Shown here piece by piece: positions 253-19,143 of a stretch of DNA of 64,000 nucleotides. Under the pieces are notes generated by a model. It searched no databases. It saw only the letters and a list, made by a program, of their open reading frames with translations, and was not told the DNA's origin. Made by a program: the position numbers and the translations under genes. Source of the stretch: Bacteroidota bacterium (GTDB lineage Bacteria > Bacteroidota > Bacteroidia > Chitinophagales > Chitinophagaceae); NCBI GenBank assembly GCA_947452905.1, contig CANGEP010000001.1:310001-374000 (forward strand). Reading direction: 5' to 3'. Every line of letters begins with the position of its first letter. The stretch's first letter is position 1.

Positions 253-1383
253 TTATAATTGTTGATGTAAAGTTAAAAAGTTTTCAGCCATTTTTTCCCA
301 GCTGTATTTTTTCTTTTCTATTTGAATATTGGAAATAAAAGATTGCTCCCCTAAGTCATATAATTTTTCAATTCCATGGGCTATGGAATCTACATCTGGG
401 TTAACTACTAATCCCACTTTTTCATGAGGAACAGTATCAGCTAGACCACCCACATTGGTTACCAACATAGGTTTTTCAAAATGATAGGCAAGAGGCGTTA
501 CACCACTTTGTGTTGCATTTTTATACGGTTGTATAATAAAGTCGGCACTGCAAACATAATTTTTAACGAATTGATCTGGCACAAATTCGTTGTGGATAAT
601 AATGCGATTTTGTAAACCCAACTTATTAATTAAATCATAGTAAGGTTGTGCCTCTTCATAAAATTCACCTACCACTAATAAAGTAATATCTTTTGCCAAA
701 ATATTGGGGGCTGACATTGCCTTTATTAAAAGATCCAAACCTTTATATTTTCGGATTAATCCAAAAAATAAGATAACTTTTTTATCTGTTGGTATATTAA
801 TATTTTGCCTTGCTTCAACTTTAGGAATGGCAATGCCAAAGTGCTCGAATATAGGATGAGGAGACAGTATTATAGGTTTAGAGGAGAATTTCCTAACATC
901 TTTACTAACTTTTTCACTCATGGTTAAAAATCCATTCATGGCGTTGGCAAAATATTTAGTCAATAATTGATCGCCAATTCTTTTTTCATGAGGAATCATA
1001 TTATCAACAATCGCAATAACTTTTGTTTTTTTATTTCCACTTGCAATTTTACAAATAGTTCCCAAGCAAGGAGCTAAAAATGGAATCCAATAACGAACAA
1101 TAATAAGATCAGGTTTTTGTTTTCTCAATAATAAACCTATTCGAATCCAATTTATTGGATTGATTGAATTAATTCTTGCATTTGATAGTATTCCTTCTGG
1201 GGCAGGGTCGCTACTAAATTGCGTTTTCCCTGGGAACAATAGAGAAGGGTATTGTAGGCTAAAAGTTTCTATACTTGCCTTTATTCCCAAATCATTAAAA
1301 GTACGGGCTAATTTTTCATCAAAAGCGGCAAGTCCACCTCTTAATGGCCAAGCGGGGCCAATTATGACCAAAGAATTTACCAT
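253..1383 (-). CDS. Glycosyltransferase family 4 protein
   Basis: A 376-residue GT-B fold glycosyltransferase. The N-terminus has a glycine-rich GGLAAF loop near residue 16, as in GT4 enzymes that grip a nucleotide-sugar. The C-terminal half has the usual GT4 block: a KKVILFFGLIRKYKGLD segment (start of the donor domain) and a stretch with GVTPLAYHFEKPMLVTNVGG, the E-x7-like donor-binding region. No membrane segment or signal peptide is seen, so it should act at the cytoplasmic face. It overlaps the upstream GT2 gene by 7 nt and is followed by gmhA, pointing to LPS or surface-glycan assembly. The sugar donor and acceptor cannot be read from the sequence. Confidence 0.85.
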   Translation of the reverse strand: MVNSLVIIGPAWPLRGGLAAFDEKLARTFNDLGIKASIETFSLQYPSLLFPGKTQFSSDPAPEGILSNARINSINPINWIRIGLLLRKQKPDLIIVRYWIPFLAPCLGTICKIASGNKKTKVIAIVDNMIPHEKRIGDQLLTKYFANAMNGFLTMSEKVSKDVRKFSSKPIILSPHPIFEHFGIAIPKVEARQNINIPTDKKVILFFGLIRKYKGLDLLIKAMSAPNILAKDITLLVVGEFYEEAQPYYDLINKLGLQNRIIIHNEFVPDQFVKNYVCSADFIIQPYKNATQSGVTPLAYHFEKPMLVTNVGGLADTVPHEKVGLVVNPDVDSIAHGIEKLYDLGEQSFISNIQIEKKKYSWEKMAENFLTLHQQL

Positions 1384-2318
1384 CCTTGTGTATCTTCAAT
1401 TAAATAGCTATTTCTTTCAGGGGCATTTCGATTCACTAATTCAGCTATAAATCCTGCCAAAAATAATTGCATACCTACAATGATAGCTGTTAAGGCAATA
1501 TAAAAAGAAGGTTTATTAGTAATTGAAGTATCAGGATATAAAAATTTAGATAACACAGTATATCCTACTGATCCCATTCCTATCAAAAAGAATAGGGTGC
1601 CAATGAGTCCAAAAAATTGCATTGGTTTTTTACCAAATTTGGATAAAAATTGAATGGTCATTAAATCTAAAAAACCATTCACAAATCTTTCCCAACCAAA
1701 TTTAGTGGTGCCATATTTTCTGGCTTGGTGAACCACTACTTTTTCGCCAATTTTTTTAAAACCTGCCCATTTAGCGAGAATAGGTATATAACGGTGCATT
1801 TCACCAAAAACTTCGATACTCTTTACCACTTTTAATTGATATGCTTTTATACCACAATTAAAGTCATGTAAAATAATACCAGAGCTTTTTCTTGCTACTG
1901 CATTATATAATTTAGAAGGGATATTTTTAGTAAAAGTATTGTCGTATCGTTTTTTCTTCCATCCACTTACTAAATGAAACCCTTGACGCACAATCATGTC
2001 ATAAAATTCGGGAATCTCATCAGGTGAATCTTGTAAATCTGCATCCATGGTTACTACAATATCCCCTTGAGCGGCTTTAAAACCCTCATTTAAGGCTGCA
2101 GATTTTCCATAATTACGTTGAAATTTTATCGCCTTAAGAAAAGGATATGTTCCTCTCAATTTGCTAATAGTTTGCCAGCTATCATCATCACTTCCATCAT
2201 CTACCATAATTACTTCATAACTATATTGATGATCTTGCATAACACGATCAATCCAGGCCATTAATTCAGGTAAAGATTCAGATTCATTAAATAAAGGGAT
2301 GACAACGGATATTTGCAT
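1377..2318 (-). CDS. GT2 polyprenyl-phosphate glycosyltransferase (DPM1/GtrB-like)
   Basis: 313 residues. An N-terminal GT-A domain (about 1-225) opens with SVVIPLFNESESLPEL and carries a DAD metal-binding motif at residues 92-94, followed by LQDSPDEIP, typical of dolichol/undecaprenyl-phosphate hexose transferases. Two C-terminal membrane helices (about 235-257 and 272-294) match the GtrB/ArnC arrangement, in which the enzyme puts a sugar on undecaprenyl phosphate at the inner membrane. The start lies 9 nt after the DUF4199 gene, and the end overlaps the GT4 gene, so translation is probably coupled. The likely role is supply of a lipid-linked sugar for envelope glycans; the sugar is unknown. 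Confidence 0.88.
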   Translation of the reverse strand: MQISVVIPLFNESESLPELMAWIDRVMQDHQYSYEVIMVDDGSDDDSWQTISKLRGTYPFLKAIKFQRNYGKSAALNEGFKAAQGDIVVTMDADLQDSPDEIPEFYDMIVRQGFHLVSGWKKKRYDNTFTKNIPSKLYNAVARKSSGIILHDFNCGIKAYQLKVVKSIEVFGEMHRYIPILAKWAGFKKIGEKVVVHQARKYGTTKFGWERFVNGFLDLMTIQFLSKFGKKPMQFFGLIGTLFFLIGMGSVGYTVLSKFLYPDTSITNKPSFYIALTAIIVGMQLFLAGFIAELVNRNAPERNSYLIEDTQGW

Positions 2319-2327
2319 GGGGGCTAA

Positions 2328-2846
2328 TTAATTGATTGAATCTTGAAATGGATTCGGATTTTTCTTGGCTATAGCTGCTCCCAATAAGGAACCAAGGGCT
2401 CCTAAAATACCGGTGCCTATAATCGCGCCACCCAAAGCAAATGGTAAAAAGTATTTCTTAGTCATAGCAATGGCTTGTTCAATCATTTCGTCAGTCATCT
2501 TTGGATTTTTTTCCATTTGCTTTCTAGACATTTCTAAAATTTTATCTACCATGTCAGGGAATAAAAACTTCATTGATAAAAATGTATAAACACAAGTAAT
2601 AACGATTACTACCGAAGTAGTTTTAAAACCATGAGCAAAAACATTACCAAAAGTAACATTGTGATTGCTTTCGTTAGAAAACAAAACTGCGCCATACACT
2701 AAACCACCTAAGAAAATAAGGTAGTTTATCCAACTTAACCAAGTTAATTCGTATAAGTTAAAGACATAAACTATTACTGAAAATACAATTGAAAGTGTAC
2801 TTAATATTACACCTTTTACAATGTGAGATGTTATTTTATTTTCCAT
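2328..2846 (-). CDS. DUF4199 family membrane protein
   Basis: 172 residues with four predicted membrane helices: about 12-30, 36-55, 75-95 and 132-158. The last is a Gly/Ala-rich helix followed by a short Lys/Asn-rich cytoplasmic tail. The pattern and the charged loop between helices 3 and 4 (containing MSRKQMEKNPKMTDEM) match DUF4199, a Bacteroidota family of unknown function. It sits between the dihydroorotase-like gene (12 nt upstream) and the GT2 gene (9 nt downstream). I recall this gene order as common in the phylum, but cannot check it here. The location suggests an envelope role; no catalytic motif is visible. Confidence 0.8.
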   Translation of the reverse strand: MENKITSHIVKGVILSTLSIVFSVIVYVFNLYELTWLSWINYLIFLGGLVYGAVLFSNESNHNVTFGNVFAHGFKTTSVVIVITCVYTFLSMKFLFPDMVDKILEMSRKQMEKNPKMTDEMIEQAIAMTKKYFLPFALGGAIIGTGILGALGSLLGAAIAKKNPNPFQDSIN

Positions 2847-2858
2847 TTTTTTTCTTAT

Positions 2859-4124
2859 TTAAGCGTTTAAATATGTTTTCCCTTTTGCAATAGTGCCAAT
2901 AATTTTTCCTTGTAAATTTTTATCCAAGAAAGGATTGTTAGTTGATTTGCTTTTTGAATATTTGTTAGATAGACAAGTTTTTTGTGATCTTGTATATAAA
3001 GTTAATTCGGCAATGCTACCATCTTTAATAGTTGCCTGTTCCAATGCAAAAATAGTTCTAGCATTAGTGGAAAATAGAGCAGCCAATTGGGAATCAGTTA
3101 ATTGAGGTAGTAAATGATAAACACTGGCAAAGCTTGTTTCAATAGAAGCTATACCTGCTTTAGCATTTTCAAATTCAATGGTTTTACCATCCCAATCTTG
3201 AGGAATATGATGAGAACTTATACAATCTATAATTCCTTCTTCTATTCCTTTTAATAAAGCGATTTGGTCTTTTTTAGTTCTAAGAGGAGGGAATACTTTT
3301 AGGAGGGTGTCATAATTATGCAAATCTTCTTCATTAAAGAATAAATGATAGGGAGTAACACTACAACTTATATGTAAGCCTTCTTTTTTTGCAGCACTAA
3401 TAAGTTTTAATCCTTTTTCAGTGCTAATTCCAGTGATATGTAATTTTGATTTCGTGTATCTTAATAATTCGATATCTCTTGCTATTATTAGTTCTTCTGC
3501 AATGGCAGGTATGCCTGGTAAACCCAATTTAGTAGACAAAATACCTTCATTCATTAAACCTAAACTCCCTAAACTTTTATCAATGGGCATTTGAATGGCT
3601 ACTCCATCAAAAGCTTTAACATACTGTAAGGCTTTTAAAAATAGAAGGGTAGATTGTACAGGGTATAATCCATCACTAAATGCAACTGCTCCATTTGATT
3701 TCATGTCAATCATTTCTGCTAAGTCCTTGCCTTCGATTTTTTTAGAGATGGCTCCAAGGGGTAAAATATGGATCGGTAGATTTTGACTATTTTGTAAAAT
3801 ATAAGTTACCTGTGATTTGGTATCAATAATAGGTTTTGTATTAGGTACTACAAATACAGTTGTAAATCCACCTTCTTGTGCAGCAGCTGCCCCTGAGCTT
3901 AGGGTTTCTCTATGTTCCATACCTGGGTCACAGAAATGAACAAAATTATCTACAAAACCAGGGCTAACTATTAGCTCTTTTTGATCGATGATTTCGTCTG
4001 CTTTACCATTATATTTGTCGGATATGGTCTTAATTGTTTGACCATCAATGAGAATATCTTTAATCTGCCCATTAAAAGGGGAGTTTGGATCAGCTATTTT
4101 GACTTGCCTGAGAAGAGTTGTCAT
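2859..4124 (-). CDS. Dihydroorotase-like protein, probably catalytically inactive (PyrC'-type)
   Basis: 421 residues, clearly homologous over the full length to class I dihydroorotases of the amidohydrolase superfamily (PGFVD block at 55-59, GGFTTV at 85-90, PNTKP at 94-98). The metal ligands are mostly gone. The DxHxH motif reads D59-N-F-V-H63, so its first His is Phe. The Arg that normally follows (HxR) is Cys65. The His expected near 178 is Gln, the HxST His is Gly232, and the TDHAPH signature reads SSHHIPQ (304-309), so the catalytic Asp is His305. By family knowledge this should not cyclise carbamoyl-aspartate. Pseudo-dihydroorotases (PyrC') serve as structural partners of aspartate carbamoyltransferase in Pseudomonas; pyrB lies at 18211. 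It heads an operon with envelope genes. Confidence 0.85.
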   Translation of the reverse strand: MTTLLRQVKIADPNSPFNGQIKDILIDGQTIKTISDKYNGKADEIIDQKELIVSPGFVDNFVHFCDPGMEHRETLSSGAAAAQEGGFTTVFVVPNTKPIIDTKSQVTYILQNSQNLPIHILPLGAISKKIEGKDLAEMIDMKSNGAVAFSDGLYPVQSTLLFLKALQYVKAFDGVAIQMPIDKSLGSLGLMNEGILSTKLGLPGIPAIAEELIIARDIELLRYTKSKLHITGISTEKGLKLISAAKKEGLHISCSVTPYHLFFNEEDLHNYDTLLKVFPPLRTKKDQIALLKGIEEGIIDCISSHHIPQDWDGKTIEFENAKAGIASIETSFASVYHLLPQLTDSQLAALFSTNARTIFALEQATIKDGSIAELTLYTRSQKTCLSNKYSKSKSTNNPFLDKNLQGKIIGTIAKGKTYLNA

Positions 4125-4423: not shown

Positions 4424-6001
4424 TCAAATTTTAACAATACTAATTACATGTCTATCCGCTTCGTTTTGTAGGCTTAGGTAATATATACCTGGCATGAGTG
4501 CAGACCCATTAAAATTGATACTAAATATGCCTGCTGTATAAGGTGTAAAATCTAAAAGAACTTGAATAGGATTGCCCACCATATTCAATAATTCTAATCT
4601 GGTATGGCCTCCATTAGTTTTATATTCAATATGAGTTATCCCTGAAAATGGATTTGGATAGTTTTTTATATGTGTGTTTTTATCTAATTCATCGGTTGTA
4701 TTGGCTACGCCACAAACAGAAGAGTTAATAACTGGAATAATGGGGTATTTTTTTAATAATATCTCGAATTGATTTGACTCAGAAACACAAAACCAATTTT
4801 GTAAAATTGAATTATATACCGATCTAAAATCATATTGGTAGTTTATATTATCACTACTTGTAACCGAAGAAGGAATTAAGGGGTTTATGCCAGTAACGCC
4901 ACCATTCACTTTTTTACCGAACAAAAATAATGGTGCAGCAGCTCCATGGTCGGTTCCACCACTGGCATTGGATTTTATTCTTCTTCCAAATTCAGAAAAA
5001 GTCATTCCTAAAACCCTGTCCTCTACACCTAATCCAGCTAAATCATCTTGAAATGCTTTAATGGCATTGGAAACATTTCCTAATAAATTAGCATGTGTGC
5101 CTTTAGTAGTATCTGTACTTGTAACCTGATTCGCATGTGTATCAAAACCGCCATAACTTACTAAATATATTTTTGTTTGTAGCCCCCCTTTAATTAATCG
5201 TGCAACAATTTTAAGTTGATTGGCCAAAGAATTGCCTGTAGGGTAGGTAGCTTGTTGTGTTACACTATCCGATGCAGTTTTAATTCTTGCAGCGTATTTA
5301 TTAGTTTGTTTTGCAATGGTTCTAATAAAACTTAATTCATACCCTGCATTAGTGTTGGGTAAAGGGTCGGCCGAACCATCGAGTAAATTATAAAAAGAGC
5401 TAGGGTCTGAAATGCTTAAACCCATGTTTACTACTGGCCCTTGACATGTTAATGTACTAATTGAACCAATTTGAATAGCTAAAGGATCCGGGTTGGCGTC
5501 ACTTGGATATTGATCGGGATAATTGGGATATTTTTGATCTAAAAATCGTCCGGCCCAACCTGTATTTAAATATTGATCACTATCAGAACCACTCATCCAA
5601 ATGTCCGTAGCTCTAAAATGAGAAAAATTCGTTTTTGCATAACCCACCGATTGCACCACATTTATTTTTCCATCATTAAATAAACTTTGAAGGGAGCTCA
5701 TTGCAGGATTTAAACCAGTGCCCTCATATCCATTTAATTTTAAAATAGCATTTTCGGGTACAGCTATATTTTTTCTAGCATTATAATAATTACTATACTC
5801 GCTAATAGGAATTACAGTATTTAATCCATCATTCCCACCGCTTAATTGAACAATCACAAGTACATTGTCGTTTGTAACGTTCGCTAATAAGTTAGTATTA
5901 AACAATGGGTGATTGTCATTTAATAAATAAATGGGATTACCCTGTATAATGGTGGGTGCCAACAAGGCTAAACTATTCCTAAAAAATTTTCTTCTTTTCA
6001 T
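4424..6001 (-). CDS. DUF1501 family protein with T9SS type A sorting domain
   Basis: 525 residues. The N-terminus MKRRKFFRNSLALLAP looks like a twin-arginine (Tat) leader. The central part is the DUF1501 fold (sulfatase/alkaline-phosphatase-like superfamily), with QLSGGNDGLNTVIP early, YGGFDTH and the TFSEFGRRIKSNASGGTDHG block, all characteristic of the family. The last 80 residues start with NYPNPFSG and form a typical Por secretion-system (type IX) C-terminal domain, so the mature protein should be exported and anchored or released at the surface. It follows the DUF1800 gene with a 2-nt gap, the usual pairing. Substrate and activity are unknown. Confidence 0.92.
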   Translation of the reverse strand: MKRRKFFRNSLALLAPTIIQGNPIYLLNDNHPLFNTNLLANVTNDNVLVIVQLSGGNDGLNTVIPISEYSNYYNARKNIAVPENAILKLNGYEGTGLNPAMSSLQSLFNDGKINVVQSVGYAKTNFSHFRATDIWMSGSDSDQYLNTGWAGRFLDQKYPNYPDQYPSDANPDPLAIQIGSISTLTCQGPVVNMGLSISDPSSFYNLLDGSADPLPNTNAGYELSFIRTIAKQTNKYAARIKTASDSVTQQATYPTGNSLANQLKIVARLIKGGLQTKIYLVSYGGFDTHANQVTSTDTTKGTHANLLGNVSNAIKAFQDDLAGLGVEDRVLGMTFSEFGRRIKSNASGGTDHGAAAPLFLFGKKVNGGVTGINPLIPSSVTSSDNINYQYDFRSVYNSILQNWFCVSESNQFEILLKKYPIIPVINSSVCGVANTTDELDKNTHIKNYPNPFSGITHIEYKTNGGHTRLELLNMVGNPIQVLLDFTPYTAGIFSINFNGSALMPGIYYLSLQNEADRHVISIVKI

Positions 6002-6003
6002 AA

Positions 6004-7608
6004 TTAAGCCAATTGATAATCGGGTGTATTAAGAATATATTTTAGCAATGCTTTAAGCCTTGAGGTAACTATATTTAAATTAATGGTAGTAGGGCTAGTT
6101 TGATAACTATTCCAAGCTTCAGTCCAATAATAATCAGAGGCTTGTCCACTTAATAGAATTTGTTTTTTTAAATTTTGTTTAGTGGTATCCAAAACATCCG
6201 TGGACAATAAATAGGAAAATAAAGTATTAACAAGTAAATTAGGATCACTAGGATCAGCACAAATTTCTTTTACAAATTTTATAGAATCAATAATTACTTT
6301 ACTAGTGTTTTTGGTGTACCCCGTATTAACTAGTAAATCGGTTAATTTATTTCTTTTAGGAAGTGTATCGGCATTAATCCATAATTCATAAAAGTCAGGT
6401 GTTTGATAATAAGCTTGCCAGCCAGCAACATTAGGCGGTTCCCCAGGATCTTGCCCAAAACTTATTAGCTGACTTACAATACTATTAAATAAACTATAAG
6501 CATCTACATAATTATTATTGGCATCAGGGAATGTAATATTAAATTGCCTAATACAACCTATAGCATGATCCATGGGGCTTTTAATTTGAGCTCCTCTGTT
6601 TTGTACATCAAAAAAATGTTCACTCGATAATAAGGCTTTTAATACAGGTTTTATTTCAAAATTACTTTGAATAAACAAAGAGGAAAGTGGAGTGATAATA
6701 TTCTTTTCAACATCGGCATCAATTTGATAAAAAACAAACCAACGATAGATTTTTCTACAAATATATTTAGCAGCTTCTGTTTTTGAGAATATCATATCCA
6801 ATAAATCATCTGTCTCCAATTGGCCATTGCTGCCTGTTTTTCCGGTGATTGTTTTATTATTATAAAAGGTAGAAAACTGCTTATTGGAGGTATCATGTTT
6901 TGTAGCATCAAAATATACTTGAAAACTTGAATTAATTCTCCAGCCAGTTAAAACTTTTGCTGCCGCTTTTACATCGTCTTCGGTATATCGTATTTCTGTG
7001 TCTTTTCCTATGGTGAAAAGCTCTTGTAATTCTCTGCCATAATTTTCATCAGGGGAAGTATTAGTATTTAAATAACCATTTAAATAACGCAACATGCCAG
7101 CATCCACAGTGACTAATTTCACCAATTGCTTAAAATTACCTAAACAAAAATTTCTGAGTAAACTGTGATGTTGATATACATAATGTGAAATACTTATGGT
7201 AGCAACTTCTGTGCCAAAATGATTTGCCCAAAATAAGGACATCTTTTCTTTAATACTTCTATCTTGATTGATCATTTGACCTACCCACCATTTTTTAAAA
7301 CTAGCTCGTCGATAACTATTTAAAGTACCATCATTAGTGGGATCATTTATCCAAGTAGTTCCAATTTTTACATTAGGATCGAGAACGGTGGTGGTGGTGT
7401 AATCATTAAGGGGTGGATTAACAGAATTATTTATGGGATTTAATAATTCATCAATAGTAGTTTTTAAGTCTTTTGTTAAGAAGTATTGAATATCTGAGTT
7501 GGCAGCCCCAAACATAGTGCGCTGCAATAAATGTTTAACCGCAGCAAAATCCCAGATGCCTTTATAAGGAGTTAGGTCAAGTTTGCTAGTGACGATGCTG
7601 GGGGGCAT
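6004..7608 (-). CDS. DUF1800 family protein
   Basis: 534 residues. The N-terminus has LLQRTMFG (about 27-34), the HLLxRxxFG signature of DUF1800. Further family marks are WANHFGTE (about 123), NYGRELQELFTIG (about 188-200) and PPNVAGWQAY near residue 400. No signal peptide is seen, and an in-frame TAA lies just 6 nt before the ATG, so the start cannot be moved upstream to add one. The partner DUF1501 gene follows after 2 nt and does carry export signals. DUF1800/DUF1501 pairs are widespread, but their biochemical role is not established; the two probably act as one unit. Confidence 0.9.
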   Translation of the reverse strand: MPPSIVTSKLDLTPYKGIWDFAAVKHLLQRTMFGAANSDIQYFLTKDLKTTIDELLNPINNSVNPPLNDYTTTTVLDPNVKIGTTWINDPTNDGTLNSYRRASFKKWWVGQMINQDRSIKEKMSLFWANHFGTEVATISISHYVYQHHSLLRNFCLGNFKQLVKLVTVDAGMLRYLNGYLNTNTSPDENYGRELQELFTIGKDTEIRYTEDDVKAAAKVLTGWRINSSFQVYFDATKHDTSNKQFSTFYNNKTITGKTGSNGQLETDDLLDMIFSKTEAAKYICRKIYRWFVFYQIDADVEKNIITPLSSLFIQSNFEIKPVLKALLSSEHFFDVQNRGAQIKSPMDHAIGCIRQFNITFPDANNNYVDAYSLFNSIVSQLISFGQDPGEPPNVAGWQAYYQTPDFYELWINADTLPKRNKLTDLLVNTGYTKNTSKVIIDSIKFVKEICADPSDPNLLVNTLFSYLLSTDVLDTTKQNLKKQILLSGQASDYYWTEAWNSYQTSPTTINLNIVTSRLKALLKYILNTPDYQLA

Positions 7609-18210: not shown

Positions 18211-19143
18211 ATGGCACTATCTACCAAACATCTTCTTGGTATCAAAGACCTCAAAACCGAGGACATTCAACTTATTTTATCTACCGCAGGTCAATTTAAA
18301 GAAGTTTTACAGCGACCCGTAAAAAAGGTTCCTACCTTAAGAGACGTTACTATCGTTAATTTATTTTACGAAAACTCTACTAGAACTAGAATCTCTTTTG
18401 AACTAGCAGAAAGGCGCTTATCGGCTGATGTAGTAAACTTTACGGTTTCTAATTCCTCCGCAGCTAAAGGGGAAACCTTATTAGATACCGTAAATAATAT
18501 TTTAAGCATGAAAGTAGATATGGTGGTGATGCGCCATAGCGCTTCTGGTGCCCCTCATTATTTAGCAAAACATATAGACGCAGCAATTATTAATGCTGGA
18601 GATGGGATTAATGAACACCCCACACAAGCTTTATTGGATGCTTTTTCGATACAAGAAAAACATGGAAAATTAGAAGGCTTAAAAGTGGCCATCATTGGTG
18701 ATATAATGCATAGTAGAGTGGCTTTAAGTAATATTTATTTGCTCAAAAAAATGGGTGCCGAAGTGATGGTTTCAGGGCCACCCACTTTAATCCCTAATTA
18801 TTTACAAGAAGCCATGGACATTAGAGTCGAATATAATATTGATAAAGCATTGGCTTGGTGTGACGTAGCCAATGTGTTAAGGATACAATTAGAACGCCAA
18901 AATCAGCCTTTATTTTCCTCTTTAAGGGAATATAATCTGGCATATGGGATAACTAAAAACCGATTGGACAAATTAGATAAACAAATCACCATAATGCATC
19001 CTGGACCTATCAATAGAGGGGTAGAATTAGATAGTGATGTGGCAGATAGTCAACAATCCATTATCTTAGATCAGGTAGAAAATGGAGTTGCCGTAAGAAT
19101 GGCATGCTTATATTTACTAACCGGTCGCAGTAATCCAGCTTAA
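18211..19143 (+). CDS. pyrB: Aspartate carbamoyltransferase catalytic subunit
   Basis: 310 residues, normal for the catalytic chain. The carbamoyl-phosphate loop is ENSTRTR (54-60), the SSAAKGETLLDT loop (82-93) supplies the neighbouring-subunit Ser/Lys, NEHPTQALLD (134-143) holds the catalytic His, and IMHPGPINRGVE is the aspartate-binding region. It makes N-carbamoyl-L-aspartate, the first committed pyrimidine step. No pyrI regulatory chain is adjacent. Enzymes of this class can need a dihydroorotase-like partner for assembly; the inactive homologue at 2859 is a candidate. coaD follows after 2 nt. Confidence 0.96.
   Translation: MALSTKHLLGIKDLKTEDIQLILSTAGQFKEVLQRPVKKVPTLRDVTIVNLFYENSTRTRISFELAERRLSADVVNFTVSNSSAAKGETLLDTVNNILSMKVDMVVMRHSASGAPHYLAKHIDAAIINAGDGINEHPTQALLDAFSIQEKHGKLEGLKVAIIGDIMHSRVALSNIYLLKKMGAEVMVSGPPTLIPNYLQEAMDIRVEYNIDKALAWCDVANVLRIQLERQNQPLFSSLREYNLAYGITKNRLDKLDKQITIMHPGPINRGVELDSDVADSQQSIILDQVENGVAVRMACLYLLTGRSNPA

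Follow-up and report, generated by a model that had tools for sequence, protein, structure and literature searches.

A degenerate dihydroorotase as the probable non-catalytic partner of aspartate carbamoyltransferase in Bacteroidia

Pseudomonas is not known to carry PyrI and encodes its active dihydroorotase (DHO) elsewhere. Its class A2 aspartate carbamoyltransferase (ATCase) pairs the catalytic chain, PyrB, with an inactive 45-kDa DHO homologue termed PyrC' or pDHO; in the sections of PMC7053772 available to us, P. aeruginosa PyrB is described as monomeric and inactive when alone and as needing pDHO to form an active trimer, with pDHO restoring the dodecamer. The same sections describe an inactive DHO-like domain in a fungal CAD-like protein (5nnl), where the DHO fold is kept without activity in a protein that contains an ATCase. 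Disruption of the pyrB-linked gene smc01361 of Sinorhizobium meliloti, which encodes PyrX, results in pyrimidine auxotrophy even though an essential PyrC is encoded elsewhere, according to the available portion of PMC5929573. In the class A1 DHO-ATC dodecamer of Aquifex aeolicus (3d6n, 4bjh), the excerpted text of PMC3880350 has the DHO catalytic once bound to ATC, unlike the protein described here.

We analysed a gene of the class Bacteroidia whose product is a pseudo-dihydroorotase (likewise abbreviated to pDHO) and looks like an independent case of PyrC'-like function, unlinked from pyrB. The window, meaning the whole 64,000 nt stretch of DNA that was analysed, contains this gene at the head of an operon, as well as the proposed partner:

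253..1383, minus strand: group 1 glycosyltransferase (GT4), in the same operon, with a 7-bp overlap
1377..2318, minus strand: family 2 glycosyltransferase (GT2), in the same operon, after a 9 bp gap
2328..2846, minus strand: DUF4199 membrane protein, 12 bp after the pDHO gene
2859..4124, minus strand: pDHO gene, encoding 421 aa
17644..18168, plus strand: gene directly before pyrB, which from its sequence we take to be pyrR-like
18211..19143, plus strand: pyrB, the ATCase catalytic chain of the native Bacteroidia type (TIGR00670, 327 bits)

The pDHO gene and pyrB are thus about 14 kb apart, and a TIGR00240 search of the whole genome returned no match to pyrI, as an earlier sequence-only reading of this locus had stated on both points. 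This distance distinguishes the arrangement from that in Pseudomonas, as does the fact that the complex is here one that we infer; the likeness to PyrC' is one of description, rather than of alignment to the P. aeruginosa sequence. Sinorhizobium PyrX and its Azospirillum homologue (loci L157 and L159; the former, from strain Ak57, is assumed to be the smc01361 orthologue from its place beside pyrB) are degenerate DHO homologues too, but their genes overlap pyrB by a few bases and they form a clade separate from the Bacteroidia proteins. The pDHO gene neither overlaps pyrB nor lies directly behind it, and pyrB was absent from all 22 Bacteroidia stretches (9-15 kb) checked around pDHO genes. Near the start of the gene in the window, a promoter scan gave one promoter-like site where 2.1 were expected, hence no signal above chance, and a terminator scan, with 0.4 sites expected, gave a single terminator-like one, which lies on the opposite strand.

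The protein scores 327 bits against TIGR00857 (pyrC_multi), exceeding the curated cut-off of 279, and by sequence the Aquifex DHOs are its closest relatives of known structure. An AlphaFold2 model built from 35 sequences has a mean pLDDT of 85.2 and a pTM of 0.88, and its top match among PDB structures is 3d6n_A, the Aquifex DHO activated by ATCase (TM 0.89, 36% identity). The full-length type-I DHO fold is therefore predicted to be intact, bearing out in the model the earlier statement that the rest of the fold survives. The Aquifex enzyme is the best match in both sequence and structure, and its type of DHO-ATC complex is likely to be the ancestral state; the 5nnl domain, which unlike pDHO is part of a fused protein, shows no more than a weak, local resemblance in sequence (E 3.2e-4). 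The low-confidence segment of the model, residues 184-199, overlaps with the part of the Aquifex chain that contains loop A, a loop which in the available part of PMC3880350 holds Cys181, is disordered in the isolated DHO and becomes ordered upon ATCase binding.

For the active site, pDHO was aligned to A. aeolicus DHO, using the letters of 3d6n; the active-site positions carry Aquifex numbers, and the residues that replace them carry those of pDHO. We take Arg65, the substrate residue, and Asn95 and His309 to have active-site roles. The metal ligands given in the accessible text of PMC3880350 are His61, His63 and Asp153 of the alpha site, along with His180 and His232. Only two of the nine metal and substrate positions, His63 and Asn95, are left in pDHO, and the replacements are found in the following stretches:

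3921..3950, minus strand: pDHO residues 59-68, DNFVHFCDPG, with Phe61 for His61 and Cys65 for Arg65; His63 is kept
3669..3674, minus strand: pDHO residues 151-152, Asp-Gly, with Gly152 for the ligand Asp153
3585..3593, minus strand: pDHO residues 178-180, Gln-Met-Pro, with Met179 for the ligand His180
3423..3440, minus strand: pDHO residues 229-234, HITGIS, with Gly232 for the ligand His232
3198..3218, minus strand: pDHO residues 303-309, SSHHIPQ, with His305 for Asp305

The counterpart of His309 is also lost, appearing as either a gap or Gln309 depending on the alignment. Hence where an active type-I DHO has His61, His63 and Asp153 at the alpha site, pDHO has Phe61, His63 and Gly152, and where it has the substrate Arg65 and catalytic Asp305, pDHO has Cys65 and His305. 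Not all of these changes carry the same weight: in the part of PMC3880350 available, changing both His180 and His232 of the Aquifex complex to alanine costs about 21% of Vmax and leaves an active double mutant, and His61 and Asp153 are therefore the telling metal-site losses, so that the most telling overall would be those of His61, Asp153, Arg65 and Asp305. His63 being the sole remaining ligand, the sequence-only reading was right that nearly all catalytic metal ligands are gone, and its individual readings of DNFVH, Cys65, Gly232, SSHHIPQ and His305 all agree with the alignment; it had, however, placed a ligand at Gln178, one residue away from the true position, as Gln178 aligns with Asp179 and His180 with Met179, and its list of lost ligands overlooked the alpha-site change of Asp153 to Gly152. 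The best reading of the alignment is that pDHO would be catalytically dead as a DHO.

The sequence-only reading had suggested looking for a second complete pyrC, and one is present in the same genome (contig 2:121904-123133), encoding a 446 aa PyrC of the PRK09236 type. This PyrC (L002; L010 4851-6227), assumed to be active from its family membership, reads DDQVHFREPG, with Gln in place of the first metal His; several class members are alike in this, and some have His. So pDHO shares its genome with another complete DHO, as in class A2 systems. PRK09236-type PyrC was found in 305 of 316 Bacteroidia genomes; among the 272 that match the pDHO profile strongly it is present in 266, the six exceptions being G313, G072, G362, G429, G503 and G516.

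These counts come from a scan of the 316 class genomes using a profile of 13 rows, with up to five candidates scored per genome. Matches at 1e-30 or better were found in 280: in 272 the match was strong (4.6e-74 or better), and in the other eight it was weak (1e-31 to 1e-52). In 46 class genomes the locus was read by sequence (the 30 top-scoring loci from the phylum scan and another 22 loci, six being common to both sets), and all 46 lack His61; each is missing several other sites besides, with some keeping Arg65, Asp153 or Asp305. The other strong matches are assigned to pDHO from score alone; one strong match, in G072, looks like an intact active enzyme and lies beside PyrB. Since the scan scored no more than five candidates per genome, every candidate was then scored in 23 of the 44 genomes that had come out as weak or negative, a set that left out 12 of the 16 pyrI genomes, six of family f82 and three of family f71. 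Rescoring revealed very divergent pDHOs in G316, G372, G310 and G527, a fragment in G476 and, in the one of seven f82 genomes that was rescored (G327), a 208-aa divergent piece close to the end of a contig. The PyrBs of G316, G372 (f71), G527 and f82 are unusually divergent as well; in G310 PyrB was not found.

In a DHO tree of 58 rows, from which Pseudomonas was left out, all 30 rows from Bacteroidia fall into a single clade (99/99, and 100% of 200 bootstrap trees), whilst the two alphaproteobacterial rows form their own (100/100), as do the four PRK09236-type PyrC rows (100/100). Bacteroidia pDHO thus apparently lies outside the proteobacterial PyrC' lineage and would have been inactivated independently; the deeper forks of the tree are weak, so that separate inactivation is no more than likely.

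Outside the class, orthologues in the phylum matched the same family profile but had their metal and substrate residues in place: the active site was intact in all 18 loci that were read, hence the tally of the phylum scan outside the class does not count pDHO. In seven of these 18 loci pyrB lies directly upstream of the intact orthologue, with gaps of 9-193 bp, and native Bacteroidia PyrB groups with those seven copies in the PyrB tree (97/93). This suggests that the intact DHO of other Bacteroidota classes is the sister group of pDHO, although the corresponding fork of the DHO tree is weak. Taken together, the intact DHO behind pyrB and the PyrB grouping fit an ancestral ATC-DHO pair, the active site of which was later lost in Bacteroidia.

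PyrB was present in every one of the 109 pDHO genomes tested (24/24, 80/80 and 5/5, the 80 being drawn from the other 242 genomes and the five being G313, G362, G429, G503 and G516), although in one of the 80, G317, only as a partial match below the family cut-off. The nativeness of these PyrBs was judged by sequence for 29 in the tree and, from their best match, for the 30 of the 80 that scored highest, all of these being native, and by score alone for the other 50. In the 29 genomes judged to lack pDHO, the picture is different: 16 have a PyrB of the type found with pyrI, four have a divergent PyrB, no PyrB was found in five and four have native PyrB. Fifteen of the 44 genomes that gave no strong match were left out of this set, namely G316, G372, G310, G527 and G476, the seven f82 genomes, and G466, G481 and G494, which have weak pDHO-profile matches like that of their relative G372. 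Hence, within the class, pDHO accompanies native PyrB, and genomes where PyrB has been replaced or was not found almost invariably lack pDHO.

The 16 genomes with pyrI (14 matches over the cut-off and two just under it, among the 316) contain no strong pDHO match, and their PyrBs form a single clade (91/74) far from native PyrB, such that the mutual exclusion of pyrI and pDHO may represent a single event. A seventeenth pyrI match, in G029, was discarded, being a piece of 25.8 bits that contains stops. The four divergent PyrBs (G012, G095, G366 and G342) have long branches and fall outside the native clade; the branch lengths leave the placement of those of G366 and G342 unsure. PyrB was not found in the pDHO-less genomes G166, G544, G324, G353 and G453. 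G166 and G544 belong to genus g23, of which another member, G072, has PyrB together with an intact DHO on the same strand of contig 23:

495937-496830: PyrB of the G072 pair
494503-495711: intact DHO of the G072 pair

The same pair of PyrB and intact DHO is also carried on a Hymenobacter volaticus plasmid (L158 1919-4272), its PyrB being distant from the native PyrB of the class. In G324 and G353 (f79) there was no match to PyrB, pDHO or either type of DHO, and the early pyrimidine pathway seems to have been lost as a block.

Some observations run against this coupling. Four draft assemblies (G469, G474, G515 and G521) were found to have native PyrB without pDHO, and in G310 a divergent pDHO is present whilst PyrB was not found. 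Several of the genomes are fragmented drafts, where absence from a single assembly is weak evidence, and related genomes are not independent of one another, for which reason Fisher values, although calculated, were set aside. Mirror-tree distances over 20 genomes gave a partial rho of 0.35 between pDHO and PyrB given PyrC, versus 0.39 between pDHO and PyrC given PyrB, hence PyrB was not favoured over the control.

Overall, we consider it probable that pDHO is a dead type-I DHO kept as a non-catalytic subunit of PyrB in a class-A2-like ATCase, as PyrC' is in Pseudomonas and as has been proposed in S. meliloti. The sequence-only reading had pointed to the scaffolding of ATCase by pseudo-dihydroorotases, and the degenerate site, the separate PyrC, the lack of PyrI, the intact orthologues and the loss of pDHO where PyrB is replaced or absent all argue for such a role here. 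From the co-occurrence with native PyrB, we infer that the two proteins physically interact, the class A2 counterpart being a 6:6 complex on which ATCase activity depends. The ancestral protein would have been an active DHO complexed with ATC, like that of Aquifex. Catalysis would later have passed to the distant PRK09236-type PyrC in the lineage of Bacteroidia, with the old DHO subunit losing its active site and becoming unlinked from pyrB, and pDHO would have been retained because native PyrB needs it for assembly, stability or regulation. Windows of pDHO near positions 137-142 and 197-207 (Aquifex numbering) show roughly the conservation seen in active enzymes, despite the whole protein being looser, and may be surfaces that touch PyrB.

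The genomic neighbourhood could point elsewhere, to a function of pDHO in the cell envelope alongside its BatA-type, DUF4199 and glycosyltransferase neighbours that is unrelated to PyrB. DUF4199 lies directly downstream of pDHO in 59 of the 90 loci with room to tell, mostly in Chitinophagaceae, and in Rufibacter tibetensis the same order recurs, pDHO being followed by two DUF4199 genes, GT2 and another glycosyltransferase. Directly upstream, 17 of 26 loci, from many families, have a BatA-type gene (L077, L078, L116-L118, L120, L123-L129 and L131-L134); the encoded proteins form one cluster and are mostly 640-700 aa long, and the Pfam BatA domain was present in all three of the 17 that were scanned. 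However, when a BatA-type profile was run against 51 genomes, the gene was not found in five of 24 with pDHO, including that of the window, and was full-length in nine of 27 others (the 16 pyrI genomes, two of f82 and a further nine without pDHO, G072 being included among the nine). G366, which keeps the BatA-type gene with a divergent PyrB and no pDHO, is the clearest case. As the gene dissociates from pDHO in both directions, the gene order appears real and old yet does not explain why pDHO is retained, and an envelope partner as the selective reason, tested through this neighbour, was not supported. Furthermore, the downstream genes vary between families, it is PyrB that pDHO tracks instead, and the orthologues in other classes are intact enzymes, 7/18 of them behind pyrB; an exclusively envelope-related role is consequently highly improbable. 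The second, non-pyrimidine role suggested in the sequence-only reading fares similarly: the pDHO-DUF4199-GT2 order is real and recurs elsewhere, but gene order is all that speaks for such a role, given the dissociation of the BatA-type gene. The old BatA-type synteny is nevertheless left unexplained by the PyrB-partner model, and there is a slim chance, if a marginally better one than that of the envelope role by itself, that in Bacteroidia a single protein, encoded in an old envelope cluster of BatA-type, pDHO, DUF4199 and GT2 genes, serves both in the assembly or regulation of the ATCase holoenzyme and in linking the supply of pyrimidine nucleotides (UDP-sugars) to the synthesis of envelope glycans.

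Two further features of this neighbourhood were observed. The minus strand of the window at 4424-7608 encodes a DUF1501 protein that ends in a type IX sorting tail (over the NCBIfam cut-off, under that of Pfam), together with a neighbouring 534-aa ORF that is presumably DUF1800, the usual partner of DUF1501. The R. tibetensis genes are annotated on 'plasmid 2' (L156), a 12.5 kb circle with six annotated genes, including pDHO, the two DUF4199 genes and the two glycosyltransferases; no replication gene is annotated in the PLSDB gene table, which is incomplete, and the sequence may be a piece of chromosome.

It is also conceivable that pDHO is still a DHO, one that uses another metal or none, for example under zinc limitation. 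A PyrC paralogue without zinc ligands is reported to be active as a DHO in the accessible text of PMC2770081, which cites Brichta 2004, and of the 30 Bacteroidia rows in the alignment four keep both His63 and Asp153 (L128, L129, L134 and L231) and five keep Arg65. Against this, His61 is kept in none of the 30, the site residues vary widely over the class, the substrate Arg and catalytic Asp have gone from the pDHO of the window as well as the ligands, and a separate PyrC accompanies nearly all strong matches; we regard residual DHO activity as very unlikely.

No better placed is the idea of an enzyme carrying out a new reaction in the old pocket, which in Chitinophagaceae is lined by Phe61, Cys65, Gln178, Gly232 and SHHIPQDWD. 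Several pocket residues are invariant, or nearly so, in the 35-sequence alignment, but this is composed mostly of Chitinophagaceae, and such conservation within one family is to be expected from close kinship. The 30 class rows differ widely in the residues found at the catalytic positions: averaged over the nine metal and substrate columns, variability is 2.36 bits against 1.77 for all columns, where the 18 active orthologues give 0.00. With the catalytic columns looser than average, no new common active site is seen, and a new catalytic function common to Bacteroidia pDHOs would be unlikely. In eighteen columns that are invariant in the active orthologues, most pDHOs have lost the residue; six of these columns are metal or substrate positions (61, 63, 65, 180, 232 and 309), and some of the others (93, 154 and 307) adjoin such residues.

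The gene is nonetheless under purifying selection. Amongst 75 relatives from a collection of species genomes, mostly labelled Bacteroidetes, Chitinophagaceae or Sediminibacterium and including a few partial sequences, none has an internal stop and the same losses recur: Phe61 in 73, Gly at 153 in all 75, Gly at 232 in 68, His at 305 in 72 and Cys at 65 in 70, with His63 retained in 57. Pairwise dN/dS between 19 close copies has a median of 0.107 and a maximum of 0.176 (116 pairs, dS < 2). These values, along with the strong matches in 272/316 genomes, accord with the earlier proposal that the gene is selected for something besides catalysis. That pDHO is a decaying, functionless pseudogene, as its destroyed active site and the greater variability of the class sequences compared to active orthologues might suggest, is refuted by this conservation to the point of being barely credible.

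In the open PMC papers, the scope of our search, which did not extend to subscription papers or preprints, no description was found of a dead DHO as an ATCase partner in Bacteroidota. If pDHO is indeed a non-catalytic subunit of PyrB, then a large bacterial class builds its ATCase with a dead DHO, in parallel to the PyrC' and PyrX of Pseudomonas and rhizobia, and proteins named as dihydroorotase by the general family model would be non-catalytic in Bacteroidia. It would also provide a testable answer to the question of what replaces PyrI as the partner of PyrB in this class, and an evolutionary series that would run from an intact DHO behind pyrB in other classes, through the dead DHO of Bacteroidia, to its loss where PyrB has been replaced.
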